From the IMG/VR virus record IMGVR_UViG_3300018016_000008, positions 1 through 24,487 of that record: a DNA stretch of 24,487 nt; one strand, given 5' to 3'. Each line of letters begins with the position of its first letter. Positions within the stretch are counted from its first letter, which is position 1. This DNA is from a virus. Shown piece by piece: positions 125 through 13,864 of the stretch. A program made the translations under genes and the position numbers. The notes beneath the pieces were generated by a model. The model did no database searches. It was not told where the DNA came from and worked only from the letters and a program-made list of their open reading frames with translations.

Positions 125-901
125 CTATTTCACCGGGTCGGGCAAATCCGCATCGATTTTCTTAGCGTAGTCGATTAAATCCTTGATTGCTTGCTGGTCA
201 AAGGGGGTTTTACGGGTGCATTCCAGCCCTTTATCATAAGTTTTTCCCGTCCACGTGATTTCATAAATATAACCGGATTGCTCATCTCCCTGCCCGCTTT
301 TTGTGGTGGGCTTATTATTTATTTCATAAGTTGTAAAGTTTGGATCATATTTGATTATTAAATACATTCGCGCCGTTGTCGGATTAGACCCGATTTTCTC
401 AACTGAATGCCTGCATGTTCCAAAAGTATCATGCAAAAAATACCCAGTTACGCCAGTCCATAGATGATTCTTACTCTGATACTTGTCCGGTGTTTCTGTT
501 CCTGATGGAACATATCCTAATATGTGGTCTTGAGGAACCGATGAAAGCCCAGCATAGGTAAAATTTAAAGGAAATCCTTTGGTACTGGCCCGCAACATTT
601 CGTAGTATGGGTCGTCAGCGGTCTCAATTAGTCCCTTATATCTTCTTTGTTCAACTTCTTTCAAACCGACGGCAGCTTCCGAGTATTCCTTATAATATCC
701 ATAAGCGTCAATTTGACGGCGTCTTTCTTTAAAATTTTCTTTCTGCTCATCATTATAACCTTGAAATCTTTTTTCTTCTGCCTCCTTTTCTGACATTATT
801 ACGTAACTAGGAGGGGTTGCTGATTCTTCAGTATTTATTAGATCGCTAGCAAATAAATTTGTTGCAAATAACATCGTAGAAATTATAATAGCTTTTTTCA
901 T
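125..901 (-). CDS. Secreted/periplasmic protein of unknown function (258 aa)
   Basis: The protein opens with a clear Sec signal peptide: MKK, then a hydrophobic stretch (residues 4-15), with probable cleavage after LFA at about residue 18. Residues 38-90 are charged and probably helical (many E, K, R). The rest has mixed composition and two cysteines, C163 and C228, that could form a disulfide in the periplasm. No membrane segment follows the signal. An AAAGGA site lies 8 bases before the ATG. It starts 22 bases after the stop of the secreted gene at 924-1292, and the two probably share a transcript. I do not recognise the family. Export of both members of the pair suggests an accessory or lysogenic-conversion role rather than a virion part, but this is inference. 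Confidence 0.8.
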   Translation of the reverse strand: MKKAIIISTMLFATNLFASDLINTEESATPPSYVIMSEKEAEEKRFQGYNDEQKENFKERRRQIDAYGYYKEYSEAAVGLKEVEQRRYKGLIETADDPYYEMLRASTKGFPLNFTYAGLSSVPQDHILGYVPSGTETPDKYQSKNHLWTGVTGYFLHDTFGTCRHSVEKIGSNPTTARMYLIIKYDPNFTTYEINNKPTTKSGQGDEQSGYIYEITWTGKTYDKGLECTRKTPFDQQAIKDLIDYAKKIDADLPDPVK

Positions 902-923
902 TTAAATATCCTTTTGTATAAAC

Positions 924-1292
924 TTACCAATTCCACCAGCCATCATATATGTTGCAGCCTTCCGCGCGTGTAATGTACGTTTTGATTTTTTTTGTATCCT
1001 GATCTGTTATATCATGAACACCATCCACAACCCATCCAGAAACGCTCTCGCCATAGTGTACGGCGGCTGAACGTCTCCCGACTTCCGATTTTGTGAGTAT
1101 TTCATGTGACTTTTTACCATCTCTCGTCCAATGCGTACTTTTAGTTTGAAAAAGCCGGGGCTTTGTCCAATCCCATGATATTGATTCGTTATTAACACAG
1201 TTTGCTCGACTATGAATGCTAAGACCATTTACTGCTGCGTGGGATAGATTAGCGGCTAGTAGTAGCGACATAACGATTATGTGCTTTTTCAT
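924..1292 (-). CDS. Small secreted Trp-rich protein of unknown function (122 aa)
   Basis: A typical Sec signal peptide (MKKHIIV followed by a Leu/Ala core) ends at about residue 19 (SHA). The mature part is about 103 residues with exactly two cysteines, C32 and C113, well placed for one disulfide that would tie the two ends together. Tryptophans are frequent and the C-terminus is WWNW. The start is supported by a strong AAGGAGGT site six bases upstream. It is the first gene of the secreted pair and probably supplies the transcript for the gene at 125-901. No enzyme motif is visible. It could be a small binding protein, an inhibitor or a toxin-like factor; the sequence does not decide. Confidence 0.8.
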   Translation of the reverse strand: MKKHIIVMSLLLAANLSHAAVNGLSIHSRANCVNNESISWDWTKPRLFQTKSTHWTRDGKKSHEILTKSEVGRRSAAVHYGESVSGWVVDGVHDITDQDTKKIKTYITRAEGCNIYDGWWNW

Positions 1293-1341
1293 TTTACCTC
1301 CTTGGTTAAGATATTTTATTAAAAAATCGCGTTAATAAAGA

Positions 1342-1358
1342 AAAGATAAATTATCTTT
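1342..1358. repeat. Perfect 17-bp palindrome before the secreted pair
   Basis: AAAGATAA and TTATCTTT are exact inverted repeats around one central base. The site lies about 50 bases before the start of the secreted gene at 1292, in a 180-base gap (1293-1472) that must hold both the end of the upstream operon and any promoter of the pair. On the minus strand it contains GATAAT, which resembles a -10 box, but no good -35 lies at the right distance. It may be an operator. It could also be a weak AT-only hairpin. Confidence 0.4.
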
Positions 1359-1472
1359 ATTTGCAAATTAATATTGTTGCCAATAATCCGCCCAATATAT
1401 TCCTGTCAATGCCCAGACTTTCTAAAAAGACTGAGCAACCGTACCAGATGGGGAGGAAAAAAATCCACATCA

Positions 1473-1787
1473 TCAATAATTTCCAGAAATTCCATATATA
1501 ACATCCAAACCTAAATATTCTTCTGGGATTTTGTCGAATTCTTCCAGGAATTTGATGTCTACATCAGATTTTTCGCAATCACTTTTAAAACAATTAAAAG
1601 ATTCACCAACTCTTAAGTAATGAGATCCATAAGGGATCCTGTTGCTGTGACTTATAGCCCCCTTTAAATCATAAACTTTAATTATATTGCTTAAATGCCA
1701 TTCATTGGATATATCTGAACCAGATTCAAACAATGTGTAACCATAACAATGACCGTTGTTAGAGTCACAAAATATATATTTATTCAT
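1473..1787 (-). CDS. Hypothetical phage protein (104 aa), last gene of the leftward small-gene operon
   Basis: The protein is mixed alpha/beta in appearance with four cysteines: C7 and C14 near the N-terminus and a CxxxxxC pair in the middle. The acidic C-terminal third ends in GNY. There is no signal peptide or membrane segment. Its ATG overlaps the stop of the 65-residue gene before it by four bases (ATGA), so translation is probably coupled. A GGTGAAG sequence just upstream could act as ribosome-binding site. No family is recognised. It is the last gene of a chain that begins at 3278, and no convincing intrinsic terminator follows it. Confidence 0.7.
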   Translation of the reverse strand: MNKYIFCDSNNGHCYGYTLFESGSDISNEWHLSNIIKVYDLKGAISHSNRIPYGSHYLRVGESFNCFKSDCEKSDVDIKFLEEFDKIPEEYLGLDVIYGISGNY

Positions 1788-1981
1788 ATCTTCACCACGT
1801 CAAAATAAATAGGTAGAGATAGCTCAACCCCCTGTTTGATTAATCTGGGGCTTGCCTCTATAAAGTCATTGAACATGCAAGCAGCATTGTCCTCATCATA
1901 GCCTTGACCTTTGTCAAATATTCTTACCATTTCCACTGATTCGCCATTATCACATTCGATTTTCATCGTGATTTTAAACAT
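1784..1981 (-). CDS. Hypothetical small phage protein (65 aa)
   Basis: This acidic small protein begins MFKITMKIECDNGESVE and ends in an alternating hydrophobic segment (LPIYFDVVKI) that suggests a beta strand. The whole looks like a compact alpha/beta fold. An AGGA site lies seven bases before the ATG. A 25-base gap separates it from the stop of the membrane-protein gene at 2007-2261, and it overlaps the next gene (1473-1787) by four bases. No function can be named. Confidence 0.7.
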   Translation of the reverse strand: MFKITMKIECDNGESVEMVRIFDKGQGYDEDNAACMFNDFIEASPRLIKQGVELSLPIYFDVVKI

Positions 1982-2006
1982 TTTACAATCCTATTTAAAT
2001 AAATTA

Positions 2007-2261
2007 TTAGCCAAACATCCACAAACAAGACATAAACATCATCGCACTTAATCCAGCAGTGATGATTATGTAGTTGTACATCACTCGAATCTCACGGTTT
2101 AGCTTGAGAATCTCATTGTTTAGTTCTTTATATCTAACAGTTGATTCTGTATCGATTTGAATAGTAACTAAGTCAAAGCCATTGATTCTATTTTCAAGAA
2201 CTTCAAGGCGTTTCTTGTAGACGTTTCCAGCGTCTGTCATTAAGATGTTTTTGTTGCTCAT
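2007..2261 (-). CDS. Small C-terminally anchored membrane protein (84 aa)
   Basis: Residues 1-58 are charged and helical, probably a coiled coil (ENRINGFDLV, then KELNNEILKLNREIRV). Residues about 61-82 form one hydrophobic segment that ends at the C-terminus, so this looks like a tail-anchored inner-membrane protein with a cytoplasmic coiled coil. An AAGGAG site lies inside the end of the preceding gene, and the ATG overlaps that gene's stop by four bases. The preceding 55-residue protein has the same coiled-coil-plus-membrane plan, so the two may work as a pair. A role in lysis timing or superinfection exclusion is possible but not shown by the sequence. Confidence 0.75.
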   Translation of the reverse strand: MSNKNILMTDAGNVYKKRLEVLENRINGFDLVTIQIDTESTVRYKELNNEILKLNREIRVMYNYIIITAGLSAMMFMSCLWMFG

Positions 2262-2425
2262 TGTAAAAACTCCTTTGCTGTGTGTAACAACATTGATAAA
2301 GCTAGAATAGCTCCTAGAATGTTGATTCTGAATATTTGCTTTTCAATTCTATCAATGCGTTCGTTTTGAAACATTTTGATTATATTCTTCTCTATTTCAT
2401 CAGTGTTTAATTCGTAATCTTTCAT
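2258..2425 (-). CDS. Tiny membrane protein (55 aa)
   Basis: This gene runs from the ATG at 2425 to a TGA at 2260-2258. The product starts MKDYELNTDEIEKN, continues with a charged helix (NERIDRIEKQIF) and ends in a hydrophobic segment at about residues 34-49. It has a good GAGGAG site 8 bases upstream and 4-base ATGA overlaps with the genes on both sides (2422-2568 and 2007-2261), which strongly supports a real gene despite its size. The plan matches the 84-residue neighbour: soluble helix first, membrane helix last. Function is unknown. It could be a small holin-like or exclusion protein, but nothing in the sequence is diagnostic. Confidence 0.7.
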   Translation of the reverse strand: MKDYELNTDEIEKNIIKMFQNERIDRIEKQIFRINILGAILALSMLLHTAKEFLQ

Positions 2426-2568
2426 TGTTTCAGCTCCTCTTCGATTATATATTGCTCATATTCCGCATCCTGTCTGTCGCCCTCGTCTTGCTCAAGTGCG
2501 TGGTAATCATGGAAAGAATCCCAGCGGATGTTGTCGTCATGGTTGCGCGCGTCGTCGATGTCTTTCAT
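2422..2568 (-). CDS. Tiny acidic protein (48 aa)
   Basis: The product begins MKDIDDARNHDDNIRWD and is very rich in Asp, Glu, His and Gln with almost no hydrophobic residues. It is probably a short acidic helix or a disordered protein. It is joined by ATGA overlaps to the zinc-ribbon gene upstream (stop 2565) and to the 55-residue membrane gene downstream (start 2425). That perfect coupling on both sides is the main evidence that it is translated. Small acidic phage proteins can act as inhibitors or nucleic-acid mimics, but nothing here proves it. Confidence 0.65.
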   Translation of the reverse strand: MKDIDDARNHDDNIRWDSFHDYHALEQDEGDRQDAEYEQYIIEEELKQ

Positions 2569-2849
2569 TTTATAAATCCTTTTGCGTCCATAATTGCGTC
2601 AGTAATAACCCTTAATGCTTTCAGTTCATTTTCCAATGATATGATTAGGTTGTCTTGATACTCGATGAGATTAGACATTTTTTGATATACGGTAATTTCT
2701 AATTGAGACCTTACGCTCTCTGGTAATGAGCATCTATTTTTGCATTCTTTGGATTCATTCATTCTGATCAACTCTTTTTCGCGACATGAAATACATAGTG
2801 CGTCAAAAGTACCAGTGCTAATCCCGCAAAGCAAACATTTTTCATACAT
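2565..2849 (-). CDS. Small zinc-ribbon protein with helical tail (94 aa)
   Basis: Residues 5-22 hold a CX2C-X10-CX2C pattern (C5, C8, C19, C22), a typical zinc-ribbon or treble-clef metal site. After it come a charged linker and a long helix (about residues 45-94) suited to dimerisation. I chose the ATG at 2849. A TTG three bases upstream (2852) would sit at a better distance, 8 bases, from the GAGGA sequence, so the protein may be one residue longer. It starts 7 bases after the stop of the coiled-coil gene at 2857-3150 and overlaps the 48-residue gene by four bases. A zinc ribbon plus helix suggests nucleic-acid or protein binding; the target is unknown. Confidence 0.75.
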   Translation of the reverse strand: MYEKCLLCGISTGTFDALCISCREKELIRMNESKECKNRCSLPESVRSQLEITVYQKMSNLIEYQDNLIISLENELKALRVITDAIMDAKGFIK

Positions 2850-2856
2850 CAATTAT

Positions 2857-3150
2857 TTAGTCCTCATCATATACATCTGATATCGTCGCCGGTGATGGCG
2901 CTGTTCTGACTTTTGACATGCCAGCCAATCTTTTCTCTTGTAAGTCTATGTAGCTCCTATACTCCCTCTTAAGCTTCTCAAAAAAATCAGTCGCCGTTTT
3001 CTCATCCATCAAATTGTGCATGTTTGCAGACGTGATTTTTGCATTCTGTTGTTCTATCCATTCCATTAACTGGCCTATGCTGCCCTTTTGAAATTTAATA
3101 GTTCTTTTTGCCTCTTTTAACTCTGATTTTAAAGATTCCAGTTCGGTCAT
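2857..3150 (-). CDS. Coiled-coil protein (97 aa)
   Basis: Residues 1-75 are almost entirely helix-forming and charged with heptad-like spacing (LESLKSELKEAKRTIKFQK, later FFEKLKREYRSYIDLQ). A short disordered acidic end (SPATISDVYDED) follows. There is no membrane segment or enzyme motif. The ATG overlaps the stop of the 43-residue gene upstream by four bases. The coiled coil suggests an oligomer or an adaptor for a partner encoded in the same operon. Function unknown. Confidence 0.75.
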   Translation of the reverse strand: MTELESLKSELKEAKRTIKFQKGSIGQLMEWIEQQNAKITSANMHNLMDEKTATDFFEKLKREYRSYIDLQEKRLAGMSKVRTAPSPATISDVYDED

Positions 3151-3278
3151 TTAAAGAACTCCATAACTTTTGTGGCGCATTTTTCTGCTAATCCACTCCG
3201 ATGATCAGAGGGGTAATATGTGATATTAACCAAATAATGATTTCCCCAATTTGTTAGCACAATTTCATTGATTCCCAT
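3147..3278 (-). CDS. Tiny protein, first gene of the leftward operon (43 aa)
   Basis: The ATG at 3278 opens a frame that ends in a TGA at 3149-3147, overlapping the next ATG by four bases. The product begins MGINEIVLTNWGNHYLVNIT and ends in a short helix (AEKCATKVMEFFK). An in-frame TGA upstream excludes a longer form. The ribosome-binding site is weak, so the main support is the coupling to the next gene and the good promoter about 50 bases upstream. It looks like a small strand-strand-helix fold. No family is recognised. Confidence 0.6.
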   Translation of the reverse strand: MGINEIVLTNWGNHYLVNITYYPSDHRSGLAEKCATKVMEFFK

Positions 3279-3326
3279 TTCTAAAGCTTTTCATTTTAAA
3301 TTCCCCGTTGTTGCGTTGATGCAGCC

Positions 3327-3354
3327 ATTATACATGACGAAAAGTAAAAAACAA
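3327..3354 (-). promoter_or_regulatory. Promoter of the leftward small-gene operon
   Basis: On the minus strand a perfect TATAAT (3332-3327) is preceded 16 bases upstream by TTGTTT (3354-3349). Transcription would start near 3320, about 42 bases before the first small gene (start 3278). It lies in an AT-rich gap between divergent gene blocks, where a promoter is expected. The -35 box matches consensus only in TTG. Confidence 0.6.
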
Positions 3355-3477
3355 TAGTAAATGTGAATTATTTTAATTTTATTCGGAGTGGATTTGTACT
3401 GTTGTAATGGTGTAATGGTACAGCATAATGAGTTAGGTGGTGTGCTAGAGTGATAACACTGGATTTCTCCCATTTAA

Positions 3478-3493
3478 CATAATATTTATTATG
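3478..3493. repeat. Perfect 16-bp palindrome, possible operator
   Basis: CATAATA and TATTATG are exact inverted repeats around TT. The site lies in the 259-base gap 3279-3537 between the leftward small-gene operon and the rightward Cys-rich gene, and ends 44 bases before that gene. Its place between divergent units suggests a regulator-binding site. The rest of the gap holds the leftward promoter and no convincing gene. Confidence 0.45.
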
Positions 3494-3537
3494 CGCACCG
3501 AGTTGCTTACCTGAAGATTATTGGATACTCTCTCGCT

Positions 3538-3717
3538 ATGAAAACATTCAAGCAATTATGTGACGAACTAACTACGGATTACTGCACAACTTGCAAATCA
3601 AAAGTAGAGTCATGCAAGAACAGGGACGGCACAAGTGAGTATGCAGACTGCATAATCAAAAATTGTAATGAGATGATCGTGAATTATTATTCTCGGCGCG
3701 ATTGGCGACATTCTTAA
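3538..3717 (+). CDS. Small Cys-rich, probably zinc-binding protein (59 aa)
   Basis: The ATG at 3538 opens a 59-codon gene ending in TAA. The product has six cysteines (C8, C16, C19, C26, C38, C43). C16-X2-C19 and C38-X4-C43 give a CX2C-X18-CX4C pattern, close to the CX2C-X22-CX4C metal site of Ogr/Delta late-gene activators of P2-like phages. The rest of that family's signature is not evident. The C-terminus is basic and aromatic (NYYSRRDWRHS). There is no clear ribosome-binding site. A weak promoter (TTGCTT, 17 bases, TACTCT at 3503-3531) would start the RNA about at the ATG, so the message may be leaderless. It lies directly before the late promoters, which suits a small regulator, but that role is inferred. 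Confidence 0.6.
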   Translation: MKTFKQLCDELTTDYCTTCKSKVESCKNRDGTSEYADCIIKNCNEMIVNYYSRRDWRHS

Positions 3718-3730
3718 GCTTTGATATACT
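3702..3730 (+). promoter_or_regulatory. Promoter directly upstream of a terminator
   Basis: TTGGCG (3702-3707) and TATACT (3725-3730) are separated by exactly 17 bases and match the sigma70 consensus at four and five of six positions. The start would be near 3737, only about 55 bases before the end of a strong terminator (3762-3794). Such a short terminated leader resembles the lambda late promoter with its antitermination-controlled terminator. The -35 box overlaps the end of the 59-residue gene. Confidence 0.5.
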
Positions 3731-3761
3731 GCGCGAGTCTAGTCACAAAACGAAGACAACT

Positions 3762-3794
3762 GGGGGCGTTATACAATCCAGCGCCCCTTTTTAC
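3762..3794 (+). terminator. Intrinsic terminator before the late operon
   Basis: GGGGCG (3763-3768) pairs with CGCCCC (3782-3787), and a G-U pair can extend the stem. The loop is about 11-13 bases, and TTTTT follows directly (3788-3792). It ends transcription of the 59-residue gene at 3538-3717 and of any RNA started at the promoter at 3702-3730. It stands before the packaging genes, so late expression must start after it or read through it. Confidence 0.8.
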
Positions 3795-3828
3795 TTATTC
3801 CCCTACCTCTTTTAATCCTTTGCTAATG

Positions 3829-3837
3829 TGCTAGAAT
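3829..3837 (+). promoter_or_regulatory. Extended -10 promoter candidate for the packaging genes
   Basis: TG, one base, then TAGAAT (3832-3837) forms an extended -10 element with no convincing -35 box upstream. The start would be near 3844, some 24 bases before the small-terminase ATG and just after the terminator at 3762-3794. It is the simplest source of the late transcript if the terminator is not read through. Confidence 0.45.
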
Positions 3838-3867
3838 CAACTCATACCACAATGGGATTATTAGTAC

Positions 3868-4365
3868 ATGCTCGAAAGAGATCACACTATAGTAGATGCA
3901 AGACCTCAAGGCGCTATGCCTGGGCGTTCTGATTTGCCTTTGACAGCAAGCGGAAATGTTCGCCACGCCGACTCTAAATACAAGCCTCATTTTCCCGACC
4001 GACTAATTGAGATGATGACGGCGGGGTGCTCCTATGCACAAGTAGCAAAAGAATTTGAGACCCATCCAAGAACAATGCATTATTGGTGTGATAACTTTCC
4101 AGAGTTTGAGGAAGCATACAGACGCGGTGCAGCTGCAAGAGAGGCGTACTTTGATAAGCTTGCACTTGAGCATCTGGTCACGGACAAAGAAGGCCCTAAG
4201 TTTGATACACGCTTATATATGTATATTAAAAGGGCAGACTTTCAGCGTTACGACACTCAGCAAGCCAACATCAACTTTAACGTTAATCAGCAGCCAGAAG
4301 GTGAGAAAGAAGTCAAAGAACTGGTGACCAAGTATATCGACACGAAGCACAAAGAGACTATATGA
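3868..4365 (+). CDS. terS: Terminase small subunit (DNA recognition), 165 aa
   Basis: The small terminase recognises the phage packaging site and guides the large subunit. Residues about 45-80 form a helix-turn-helix of the kind seen in small terminases (MTAGCSYAQVAKEF, then THPRTMHYW and FPEFEEAY), followed by a helical region and a hydrophilic tail (residues 130-165, Gln/Asn/Glu/Lys-rich). Position and length fit: it is the first gene of the packaging block, with the large subunit about 0.95 kb downstream. The ATG at 3868 has only a weak ribosome-binding site. An in-frame ATG at 3916 (MPGRSDLP) lies four bases after AAGG and could be the true start. The stop overlaps the next gene by four bases. 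The family is confident; the exact start is less so. Confidence 0.82.
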   Translation: MLERDHTIVDARPQGAMPGRSDLPLTASGNVRHADSKYKPHFPDRLIEMMTAGCSYAQVAKEFETHPRTMHYWCDNFPEFEEAYRRGAAAREAYFDKLALEHLVTDKEGPKFDTRLYMYIKRADFQRYDTQQANINFNVNQQPEGEKEVKELVTKYIDTKHKETI

Positions 4366-4568
4366 GTGATGCACACGATTATTTAGATCACACATCTTTG
4401 CTGCTAGACACAGCCATCATGCTACGCGAGCTTGAAATCACCATTTCAAAAGCCAAGCAGCTGCATAGTGAATATATCGACGCCTATTCAAAGTCTGGAA
4501 TACTTACACTCCATGATATGCGAGCACTTAATCTAATTAACATCGAGAGCACTTATGAACATTATTGA
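4362..4568 (+). CDS. Small helical protein between the terminase genes (68 aa)
   Basis: The protein is acidic and probably all helix (LLDTAIMLRELEITISKAKQ), with no membrane segment and no cysteine. Its ATG overlaps the stop of the small terminase by four bases (ATGA), and its own end overlaps the next gene by 14 bases. This arrangement supports translation coupled to the small terminase. No family is recognised. Its place inside the terminase locus suggests a packaging accessory, but the sequence does not prove it. Confidence 0.65.
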   Translation: MSDAHDYLDHTSLLLDTAIMLRELEITISKAKQLHSEYIDAYSKSGILTLHDMRALNLINIESTYEHY

Positions 4569-4812
4569 AAAACTTTTTAGCACAATCAAACCCTCAGGCA
4601 TTGATGCTGCGCTTAATGACATGCTCAAGGCAATCGCTGCGCATCATGATGCAATCATCGCGCACATTAACAGCCTGCCAGACTCAATCAAAGGCGAGCT
4701 AATCAAAGAGATTGCAACCATGGCAGTAAACGATATTTCTGAGCATGAGGGCCTTGTGGGCTCATCTAATGTGTCTGCAACTGTGGTGGCATCACCCGAG
4801 GTGACATCATGA
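4555..4812 (+). CDS. Small protein between the terminase genes (85 aa)
   Basis: The first 65 residues look helical and amphipathic (IDAALNDMLKAIAAHHDAIIAHI, given here in part). The last 20 are Ser/Val/Thr-rich and probably disordered. It overlaps the 68-residue gene by 14 bases, and its TGA overlaps the next ATG by four. A GAGAG sequence 5 bases before the ATG is a modest ribosome-binding site. The next gene encodes a one-helix membrane protein, and the pair might act together. Function unknown. Confidence 0.65.
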   Translation: MNIIEKLFSTIKPSGIDAALNDMLKAIAAHHDAIIAHINSLPDSIKGELIKEIATMAVNDISEHEGLVGSSNVSATVVASPEVTS

Positions 4813-4967
4813 GCATATTCGATAAAGTGCTTAAAGATGCAATGAATCTGATGAAGAAACATGAGAAAGAAACACAAGCAATTATCCTGGCGCTTGCTAT
4901 GGCTGCTGCAACTGCGGGCGTGGCTATTGCTGAATCTGAAGAGGTGAAAGAAAATGCCGCTGGTTAA
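4809..4967 (+). CDS. Tiny single-span membrane protein (52 aa)
   Basis: The ATG at 4809 overlaps the preceding stop by four bases and the frame runs to a TAA at 4965-4967. The first 22 residues are a charged amphipathic helix ([19 protein letters not shown]). Residues about 24-41 are an Ala/Leu-rich hydrophobic segment, and the end is acidic. It overlaps the next gene by 14 bases. A short one-helix membrane protein in a late operon could be a holin or pinholin, but no lytic enzyme is next to it, so this is only a possibility. Confidence 0.65.
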
Positions 4968-5115
4968 ATCATCAAGCAAGAAAGCACGAGAAAAGAACAT
5001 CGAGACGGAAATTAAAGCCGGAAAAAAGCCCTCTCAAGCTGTAGCGATTGGCTACTCTATACAAGATAGGGCTAAATCTAAAACCAAATCTAAACCGAAA
5101 GGAAAATCGAAATGA
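4954..5115 (+). CDS. Small Lys-rich phage protein (53 aa)
   Basis: A GAGGTG site seven bases before the ATG gives good translation support. The centre ([21 protein letters not shown]) reads like a small conserved phage protein type with an 'E-x-KAGK-x-x-x-QA-x-AI-x-YS' pattern that I recall from other phage genomes without a known role. The last 15 residues are Lys/Ser/Pro-rich and disordered. It starts inside the 52-residue gene (14-base overlap), and its TGA overlaps the next ATG by four bases. The strong positive charge suggests DNA or RNA contact, by inference. Confidence 0.65.
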
Positions 5116-5309
5116 TGAACGAAATGCGCGAAATGAAAGAGCATGAAATGAAATACGAGTCTGAAGAACGTAAATCAAAGAAGCGTGATGAAAAGATGCC
5201 AGCAAAGTCTAGCATGAAAAAAGACGGCGGACTCAAAGCAGTCACTCTTGAAGGCTCAGGCCGTGCTTGCTACCCCAAGCTTAAGAAGATGAATAACAAG
5301 CCTTACTGA
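5112..5309 (+). CDS. Small charged protein coupled to the large terminase (65 aa)
   Basis: The first 38 residues are a very charged Met/Glu/Lys-rich helix ([20 protein letters not shown]). The end ([21 protein letters not shown]) is more compact and basic. It begins in an ATGA overlap with the 53-residue gene. Its TGA shares its last base with the ATG of the large terminase (TGATG), so terminase translation is probably coupled to it. A second ATG directly follows the first. No family is recognised. Confidence 0.6.
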
Positions 5310-6877
5310 TGACAATACAAGACCACGGACACTTAACCGTCCCGACTCTTGCAGAATATGACTACACGAGCGCAGACCTGAAGGGTTCCTTCTTGCTTTT
5401 CGTTCGTGTTTTCTATGAACTCAAGAACGGGCGACCCTTCAGTATTTCTTGCCCACCCGGCAAGGAGCCGCACGTTATTACAATGGCGCGTGAACTAAAG
5501 GCTGTCTTCAATATGGAGACAACGCGATTGGTAATCAATGTTCCGCCTGGTTACGGTAAGTCAACATTGTTAGTTTACTGGGTAGCGTGGTGTTATGCTA
5601 ATTATCCTGATTGCAATTTTTTATATATATCTGTGGGGTACGACCTCGCAGTAAAGCATACATCAACCATTAAAGAAATCATGGAAATGAGCGAGTATAA
5701 ACGGCTTTTTGGTGTGCATCTGAGGCAAGACTCAAAGAGCAAGGGCAATTTCAAAACGGAGGCTGGCGGCATTTGTACGGCCTTCGGTGCTGAAATGACT
5801 ATCGTTGGGGCTGATGCTGGATTGCCCAATTGCGACCGCTTTTCCGGTTGCGTTCTGATGGATGACATGCACAAGTACACTGATACATTCTCAGAGCTAT
5901 TGCGTAACAAGGTGATTGATAACTACAAGGGCACGATCACAATGCGCCCTCGCTCGCACAATGTGGCGCGTATATTCATCGGTCAGCGTCTCCATGAGGA
6001 TGACTTACCGGCTTTCTTTCTTGATGGCAAAGAGGGCTACGAGTGGAAAAAAGTCATCTTAACAGCACTGGATGAGCACGATAACGCACTGTACCCCGAG
6101 GAGCACCCCAAGTCCGAACTTCTGATAATGCGCGACAAAGACCCATACAACTTTTGGGCACAACAGATGCAGCAACCCCAACCACCTGGGGGCGGCATAT
6201 TTCAGCGCGATTGGTTCCATTTGACGGACATTGACCCTCCTATTCTGTCTACATTCTTGACAATTGACAGCGCGGAAACTGATAAGACCTGGAACGACGC
6301 GACCGCCATGTCATTCTGGGGCATATATAAGATAGAGCATCGAGGCATTGACTTTGGTGTCTATGGCCTGCATTGGCTGGGTTGTCGAGAAGTTCGCATC
6401 GAGCCTAAAGACCTAGAGGCTGAGTTCTATGACTTCTACCAAGAATGTATGCGCTATCCCATTAGACCTGATTGGGTCTTGATTGAAAAGAAATCAACAG
6501 GCGTCACGTTGACCTCGATACTTAAGACAGTGCCAGGTCTGCGCATTATGGACGTTGAGCGCAATGCAGGGGGCGGTAATAAAACTGCGCGTTTCTTTGA
6601 ATGCCAGAAGTTTGTGGCATCCAAGCAGATATCAATACCACGTACTGGCAAACATACTGAGCGATGTTTGGAGCATATGCGCAAAATCACAGGCAACCAA
6701 TCACACGCCCATGATGATATAGCTGACTCACTTGAAATGGCCTGCCGAGCCACCCTCATTGATGGAACTATCTTACCTCATGAAGACAAACAGTCTGAAG
6801 TCTTAAAAGCCTTTGTAGGCTCAGCAAACAGACTAGACGCACTTAGACAACAAAACCTTAATTCGATGCACTTATAA
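5309..6877 (+). CDS. terL: Terminase large subunit (packaging ATPase and nuclease), 522 aa
   Basis: The large terminase cuts the concatemer and drives DNA into the procapsid with ATP. The ATPase half shows a Walker A-type loop at residues 79-86 (PPGYGKST), Walker B at 181-186 (CVLMDD) and a coupling motif at about 222-233 (IFIGQRLHEDDL). The nuclease half has an RNase H-like acidic set: D320 in LTIDSAETDK, E393 in LIEKKSTG, and D469/D470 in HAHDDIADS. Length is usual for the family. No strong ribosome-binding site precedes the ATG, but its first base is the last base of the previous stop (TGATG), which points to coupled translation. The portal gene follows after 11 bases, as in P22. Confidence 0.96.
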   Translation: MTIQDHGHLTVPTLAEYDYTSADLKGSFLLFVRVFYELKNGRPFSISCPPGKEPHVITMARELKAVFNMETTRLVINVPPGYGKSTLLVYWVAWCYANYPDCNFLYISVGYDLAVKHTSTIKEIMEMSEYKRLFGVHLRQDSKSKGNFKTEAGGICTAFGAEMTIVGADAGLPNCDRFSGCVLMDDMHKYTDTFSELLRNKVIDNYKGTITMRPRSHNVARIFIGQRLHEDDLPAFFLDGKEGYEWKKVILTALDEHDNALYPEEHPKSELLIMRDKDPYNFWAQQMQQPQPPGGGIFQRDWFHLTDIDPPILSTFLTIDSAETDKTWNDATAMSFWGIYKIEHRGIDFGVYGLHWLGCREVRIEPKDLEAEFYDFYQECMRYPIRPDWVLIEKKSTGVTLTSILKTVPGLRIMDVERNAGGGNKTARFFECQKFVASKQISIPRTGKHTERCLEHMRKITGNQSHAHDDIADSLEMACRATLIDGTILPHEDKQSEVLKAFVGSANRLDALRQQNLNSMHL

Positions 6878-13145: not shown

Positions 13146-13220
13146 AGCCACCATTATATTATTATATCCTTTATTTGAAAGGGATGAAATAGGAGGTCTA
13201 AAAGTAATTGCAAGTTTATG

Positions 13221-13249
13221 TTGATATAAATGGAGGACTAAATTATAAT
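13221..13249 (+). promoter_or_regulatory. Near-consensus promoter of the endonuclease gene
   Basis: TTGATA (13221-13226) and a perfect TATAAT (13244-13249) are spaced by exactly 17 bases, five and six matches to the sigma70 boxes. This is the best promoter in the window. The start is near 13256, followed by AGGAG at 13267 and the ATG at 13280. It lies in the 134-base gap 13146-13279, in the middle of a late operon. Confidence 0.7.
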
Positions 13250-13279
13250 CCTGGTTATCAAAACTTAGGAGTATTTTCT

Positions 13280-13864
13280 ATGTCTGAAATTATCAAAACT
13301 TGCAAAGTCCATGGCCCATTAACTATTGACCAGGTCTCAGTTAACCCACGGAAAGATAGACCTAATGGAAAGGGCGAAATTAGATGTTTGCAGTGCAAAA
13401 GTGCCATTGCTGCTAGAGCATATGAAAAAAGAAAGACAATTTTTATTGAAACTGCGACTGACGAAGAAAAGAAAGGGGTCAGAGATGAGATTAATGCAAA
13501 GGTGAGAGCAGATAGACTGATTGATCCAGAAAAATATCGTAATCAAGAAAATAAAAAGAGACAAAAGAATTTAGAGCGCTCAAGAAAGTTAGACATCTTA
13601 AAAAAGTACAATTTCACAGAAAAGCAATATGATGACATGCTTGAGACTCAGGGTCATAGATGCGCAATATGCAAAGAATATGAAACTCGAAAGAGCAGAA
13701 CTCCTGGAGAAATATCTAGGCTTGCTGTAGATCACTGCCATAAAACGGGTAAAGTTAGAGCTTTTTTATGTCACAAATGCAATCAGTTCATTGGATTCTG
13801 CAATGAGGATGAAAATATATTGATGGAAGGCATAATTTATCTTAGGAAACACAACACAGAATGA
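13280..13864 (+). CDS. Endonuclease VII family HNH/treble-clef nuclease (194 aa)
   Basis: The catalytic half is unmistakable for the recombination endonuclease VII family: C128-X2-C131, then D151-H152-C153-H154 with T-G-K-V-R, then C164-X2-C167-N168, giving two zinc knuckles around the ββα-metal active site. The N-terminal 45 residues carry a second probable zinc site (C8, H11, C36, C39). A very basic helix (residues 60-110) links the two and probably binds DNA. AGGAG eight bases before the ATG at 13280 fixes the start; an in-frame TTG at 13208 lies before the promoter and is rejected. The TGA overlaps the gp10-like gene by four bases. With its own promoter inside structural genes it looks like a free-standing homing-type nuclease. 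A role in resolving packaging DNA is the alternative. Confidence 0.93.
   Translation: MSEIIKTCKVHGPLTIDQVSVNPRKDRPNGKGEIRCLQCKSAIAARAYEKRKTIFIETATDEEKKGVRDEINAKVRADRLIDPEKYRNQENKKRQKNLERSRKLDILKKYNFTEKQYDDMLETQGHRCAICKEYETRKSRTPGEISRLAVDHCHKTGKVRAFLCHKCNQFIGFCNEDENILMEGIIYLRKHNTE

Follow-up and report, generated by a model that had tools for sequence, protein, structure and literature searches.

A predicted promoter-terminator unit ahead of the terminase genes of a virus

Introduction

Why should a strong candidate promoter be followed almost at once by a hairpin terminator, directly ahead of a late operon? This question is raised by an uncultured phage whose linear record, IMGVR_UViG_3300018016_000008, runs to 24,487 bases; the whole of it was analyzed and is referred to here as the window. 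The arrangement itself is of a known kind; its regulatory role in this phage, as read from the sequence, is unproven. Here, we describe the unit, its conservation, and its distribution among terminase relatives, and weigh what it might do.

Results

According to the ORF list of the window, leftward ORFs occupy approximately 125-3278. These are followed by a rightward series comprising a 59-codon ORF, the terminase small subunit gene (terS), several small ORFs, the terminase large subunit gene (terL), and a portal gene from 6889. The promoter-hairpin site sits between the leftward ORFs and the rightward terS-terL late operon. The features of the region are as follows.

3292..3862, no strand: control region, the block in common with contigs L002/L003 (92% DNA identity; 92.7% over 3305-3862)
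3327..3354, minus strand: candidate leftward early promoter, TTGTTT-16-TATAAT (rank 24 over both strands by an ad hoc scorer)
3538..3717, plus strand: Cys-rich 59-codon ORF (ORF list)
3702..3730, plus strand: candidate promoter TTGGCG-17-TATACT with a TGn extension (consensus and weighted scans; one substitution in the relative, at 3713 in the spacer)
3737..3792, plus strand: predicted terminated leader or small RNA of ~55 nt (fold and pair scan)
3762..3792, plus strand: predicted intrinsic terminator with a 9-bp stem, a 9-nt loop, and five T (fold and terminator scan)
3810..3837, plus strand: candidate second promoter with extended -10 TGCTAGAAT, a weak -35 (TTTTAA), and a 16-nt spacer (score 8.3)
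3868..4365, plus strand: terS (PHROG 309, E 6.5e-9; Pfam Sf6_terminase, E 0.0082, below the cut-off)
5309..6877, plus strand: terL (PHROG 38, E 3.1e-67)

A related contig, G002, extends past the window and carries more rightward ORFs, a RusA resolvase, a lysozyme-like gene (a weak match; Pfam SLT, E 0.038, below the cut-off), and then leftward ORFs. A near-mode DNA search of phages gave no match, while a distant-mode search returned 13 records with short matches only (4-6% of the query, E 0.2-0.6). Alignment searches with TerS found four loci, including the distant L036 (32% over 68 residues). One terL relative, L018, is held in a bacterial bin. Only one of 13 genomes of L018's order matched, which was L018's own, and thus no host is named.

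The observation of a promoter followed by a hairpin is confirmed. The -35 hexamer TTGGCG lies at 3702-3707 and the -10 hexamer TATACT at 3725-3730, separated by a 17-nt spacer that ends in TGA (TG at 3722-3723). Transcription would start at approximately 3736-3737, in agreement with the start given by the first-pass annotation. With a weighted ad hoc scorer, this promoter ranks second among all positions of the window on both strands (score 12.2). Promoter-like sites are nevertheless frequent, as a standard scan of 2500-5500 found nine, the 3702 promoter among them, against 7.2 expected. In a lambda control (L037), the same scorer placed first a TTGACT-17-TAAATT site, which presumably corresponds to pR'. 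The 3702 promoter overlaps the end of the 59-codon ORF.

The hairpin at 3762-3788 is GC-rich, begins 25 nt after the predicted start, and runs directly into a T-tract (3788-3792), the first T of which is also the last base of the stem. By sequence it thus has the form of an intrinsic terminator. It is the top plus-strand site in a terminator scan of the window; one minus-strand hairpin is lower in energy (-16.4 versus -14.3) but has a poorer T-tract. Folding of 3737-3800 gave -18.3 kcal/mol (z -3.57), which none of 200 shuffles equaled. When the fold was extended to 3867, z fell to -1.95 and eight of 200 shuffles did as well. Two hairpins of -13 kcal/mol or lower occur in the window over both strands, compared with an average of 0.53 over 30 shuffles, and so the hairpin by itself is not improbable. 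A standard scan of 2500-5500 found two terminator-like sites (2.6 expected), neither of which is this hairpin, because its 9-nt loop exceeds the loop limit of 8. In a laxer scan that did not enforce the closing pair, it came only sixth on the plus strand.

As a pair, the two elements are less easily explained by chance. A promoter and hairpin of this strength within 60 nt were found in none of 100 shuffles, although looser limits admitted more (1 of 100 at a promoter score of 10 and a hairpin of -12; 19 of 100 at 8 and -9). The window holds a second, weaker plus-strand pair (start 244, hairpin 292-311), which falls within a leftward ORF. A match of an 18-mer from the leader to L033, an unrelated contig, was taken as chance.

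Beyond the hairpin lies the third element claimed by the first-pass annotation, an extended -10 promoter (TG-C-TAGAAT, 3829-3837) followed by terS, which we likewise recover. This promoter ranks 40th over both strands and 19th on the plus strand, and its score is clearly lower than that of the 3702 promoter (8.3 versus 12.2).

Protein and pattern searches found one independent close relative with the unit, L002 and L003 being identical across the aligned stretch. Relative to L002/L003, there are 45 substitutions across 3305-3867. One of these falls in 3702-3736, none in 3737-3758, and three at the hairpin base or immediately ahead of it, leaving the loop and T-tract unchanged. The closing pair G3762-U3788 becomes A-U, a one-sided change. 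Positions 3829-3849 are also unchanged, while the preceding 3794-3827 has seven substitutions in 34. The keeping of the promoter hexamers and of the hairpin pairing lends the unit weak support. The leader lies within an unchanged run of 46 nt (3714-3759), but 63% of random placements of 45 substitutions in 3305-3867 produced one of 46 nt or more. The unchanged leader is thus by itself no evidence of constraint. The longest unchanged run is 88 nt (3488-3575; P = 0.016 under random placement) and lies away from the leader.

Two further features of these relatives were noted. L001 matches the window only from 3787 on, its position 1 coinciding with the hairpin edge, which may reflect either the end of a genome or a break in the assembly. 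TerS (window 3868-4365 versus L002 1343-1825) is 56-58% identical at the protein level, whereas TerL beyond it is listed as 100% identical; judged from the alignments, this contrast marks an abrupt mosaic exchange within the packaging genes.

The 59-codon ORF is possibly not a gene. Compared with L003, it has two synonymous and four amino acid-changing codons, and so shows no sign of selection on its protein. The protein has no match in Pfam or PHROGs, and nothing significant among solved structures (best sequence match E 4.7; best PDB fold E 5.6). Its predicted structure consists of helices (pLDDT 79) and was built from two sequences. A profile of the protein, searched against 28 records, matched its relative and, weakly, a stretch of 21 residues in G023 (E 0.002), which lies just upstream of terL on the opposite strand and was taken as chance. 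The hairpin begins 45 nt past the end of this ORF, a normal spot for the end of a gene.

We surveyed terL relatives for similar units, starting from the best 80 loci among the matches listed in a TerL alignment. The scanned set comprised 43 loci, which fall into 36 clusters when grouped at 90% identity; 41 of these loci came from the best 80, and the other two are L023 and L025. The remaining 39 of the 80 were left out as having little DNA before terL (7), being copies of the window phage (5), having a partial terL (1), or being no more than 34% identical (26). The scan reached up to 6 kb upstream of terL, but only 1.1-2 kb in some loci, so that units farther away are missed. A unit was defined as a promoter with a score of at least 8 and a hairpin of -12 or lower within 60 nt. 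Applied to the lambda control, the pair scan missed the pR'-tR' site; these hairpin limits do not catch tR', and the survey thus undercounts promoter-hairpin units.

Five units were found in 185,043 upstream plus-strand bases, none on the upstream minus strand, and one in 172,547 downstream bases. The upstream units belong to L038 and L086 (one cluster, with identical DNA there), L050, L019 (the contig of L003), and L025. The L050 unit, which precedes leftward ORFs, satisfies the limits but was excluded from the count. In 3 of 36 clusters, therefore, a unit stands at the head of the rightward operon: the window phage's own, L038/L086, and L025. In the remaining 33, some of which have little upstream DNA, no unit was found at that position by limits that also miss lambda's terminator.

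The distance from start to hairpin is 46 nt in L038/L086 and 31 nt in L025. The -35 of the L038 unit, like that of the window, overlaps the end of the ORF before it. The following ORF, which is an open frame only, begins 22 nt past the hairpin. This gap leaves almost no room for a promoter between hairpin and ORF; lower-scoring promoter-like sites lie farther on, with starts at approximately 1859, 1873, and 2116. In L025, divergent ORFs are ~550 nt apart; the unit is located in this gap, which contains three hairpins, and terL follows 3.5 kb and several ORFs later. L018, L023, and L070 have promoter-like sites in the gap before their rightward genes (scores 10.8, 6.7, and 13.9, respectively, that of L023 being weak), and no terminator was found in those gaps.

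The first-pass annotation suggested that the unit follows the logic of lambdoid phages, in which a Q-type antiterminator opens a short terminated leader. As judged from the DNA letters only, the layout is that of a Q leader, with a sigma70-type promoter and then a terminator before a late operon. As at pR'-tR' of the lambdoid phages (lambda, 21, and 82), there is a promoter adjoining the end of the preceding ORF, a short leader, an intrinsic terminator, and late genes. Two features set it apart from pR'-tR': terS follows at once, and there is a candidate second promoter downstream of the terminator. The suggestion stands for the layout, which recurs in similar form in two more distant relatives. 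A search for a Q-like gene, as the annotation proposed, gave no match to PF06530 or PF03589 in seven records or in 23 more selected from the best 80 terL loci, all of them fragments and none known to be complete; PF06323 gave none in the seven fragments, with its control silent.

According to the available text of PMC6606751, Q depends both on a -10-like sequence and on a binding element within the promoter. Between +1 and +22, the window has no -10-like pause element (A2, T6, and at least three of six matches); L003 has GACAAT at +19, which is not common to both. By eye, the 17-nt spacer holds no obvious Q binding element. The available part of PMC7171158 describes three Q families as lacking significant sequence similarity to one another. 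Antitermination is described in other systems as well. AlpA of Pseudomonas aeruginosa reads past terminators whose distances from the start site are 54 and 26 nt (alpB and PA0807; PMC7969949, in part), compared with 25 nt here. GafZ is described, in an excerpt of PMC11150451, as antiterminating a gene transfer agent cluster. P7 of Xp10 reads past terminators ahead of late genes (PMC6624301, in part), and this 7-kDa phage protein is described as capable of antitermination (PMC4513864 and PMC6624301, both in part). Here too a terminator precedes late genes and a very small protein is a candidate, although the 59-codon ORF has no significant match among solved proteins.

Discussion

Conserved in a close relative, the unit probably serves either to shield the late genes or to gate them. 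The safest reading, which we consider close to an even call, is that the terminator insulates and that late transcription has a promoter of its own. Polymerase starting near 3737, or arriving through the 59-codon ORF, would be released near 3792. The hairpin would then end both the transcript of that ORF and an RNA of ~55 nt, insulating terS and the genes after it, and basal late transcription would begin at the extended -10 promoter, with a start near 3844. This reading draws on the quality of the hairpin and promoter, their conservation with the closing pair kept, and the 45-nt spacing to the ORF end. It also draws on the unchanged run that contains the extended -10, and on the terminator-less gaps of L018, L023, and L070. 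The simpler account in the first-pass annotation, in which the hairpin ends the 59-codon gene and the promoter at 3829 starts late RNA, fits these data but leaves the upkeep of the 3702 promoter unexplained. Against insulation count the strong promoter kept 25 nt before a terminator, the lower score of the site at 3829, and the single independent relative. We infer that the 3702 promoter would fire, that the hairpin would terminate transcription, and that the RNA would be stable, and likewise which promoter would drive the late genes.

A gated leader is a less likely explanation but the main rival. The 3702 promoter would be active early and its transcripts would stop at 3792 until a phage factor overrode terminators and switched on the late operon. 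That factor would work like Q, AlpA, or P7 and would be an unrecognized protein, perhaps encoded by the 59-codon ORF or by an early gene. Gating is consistent with the Q-like layout, the AlpA-like distance to the hairpin, the size of p7, the units that also head the rightward operon in L038/L086 and L025, and the lack of room for a promoter behind the L038 hairpin. It sits poorly with the Pfam searches, the missing shared pause element, the promoter after the terminator, and the rarity of the unit among terminase clusters, the window phage's own included. The promoter-like sites farther on in L038, in which the ORF after the hairpin is no more than an open frame, and the absence of a solved fold matching the model of the 59-codon protein also argue against it. 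We think it doubtful that the idea extends to a group of these phages, some of which would gate late genes through a terminator 25-46 nt after the promoter by means of an antiterminator unrelated to Q, AlpA, and P7, possibly encoded by a Cys-rich ORF with the promoter in its 3' end.

A small RNA gene, with the ~55-nt RNA as its product acting in trans on phage or host mRNA, appears unlikely. The relative has the leader and loop without change but differs in the DNA immediately past the terminator, and in size and promoter-terminator form the unit resembles the phage RNAs VpdS, sar, and OOP (VpdS, ~50 nt; sar, 68/69 nt; PMC12197685, in part). However, a leader run of this length is expected by chance, the window has no Rfam match at gathering scores, and predicted duplexes with 34 translation starts, scanned without a control set, were unremarkable and gave no convincing target. 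Unlike VpdS, sar, and OOP, this RNA is a prediction. Less probable still is a chance or relic promoter at 3702, which would leave only the terminator and the 3829 promoter as functional parts. Consensus sites are indeed common and only one independent relative keeps this one, but it has the second rank on both strands, a single substitution in 3702-3736, and no equal for the pair among the shuffles. A DNA element rather than an RNA signal, either a genome end or a packaging site beside terS, seems highly improbable. Contig L001/L011 begins at the hairpin edge, although L002, L003, and the window continue across the site. TerS is weakly Sf6-like (below the cut-off), and the Sf6 type is a headful packager. 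Assemblies, too, can break at hairpins.

Should the leader be gated, these phages would encode an unrecognized late-gene antiterminator, which could be found by testing early genes on the leader. If it is not, the locus would be a tidy case of an insulated late promoter, and the predicted RNA could be sought in metatranscriptomes.

Several observations concern other parts of these genomes. A leader sequence of approximately ATCAACGCAACAACRGGA (minus strand) is repeated directly before successive leftward ORFs, with similar copies in L019 (3493-3515, 3723-3745, and 3963-3985) and in the window (3303-3320); it is perhaps a 5' UTR module. In L018, a long low-complexity stretch (1161-1448), GYGDGSGS-like in one minus-strand frame, lies ~600 bases before a likely terS. 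The phage contig L050 has a 66-residue ORF at 2240-2440 that by eye resembles a cold-shock protein. Among the rightward genes of the window, 13208-13864 encodes an Endonuclease VII domain (PF02945, E 6e-21).
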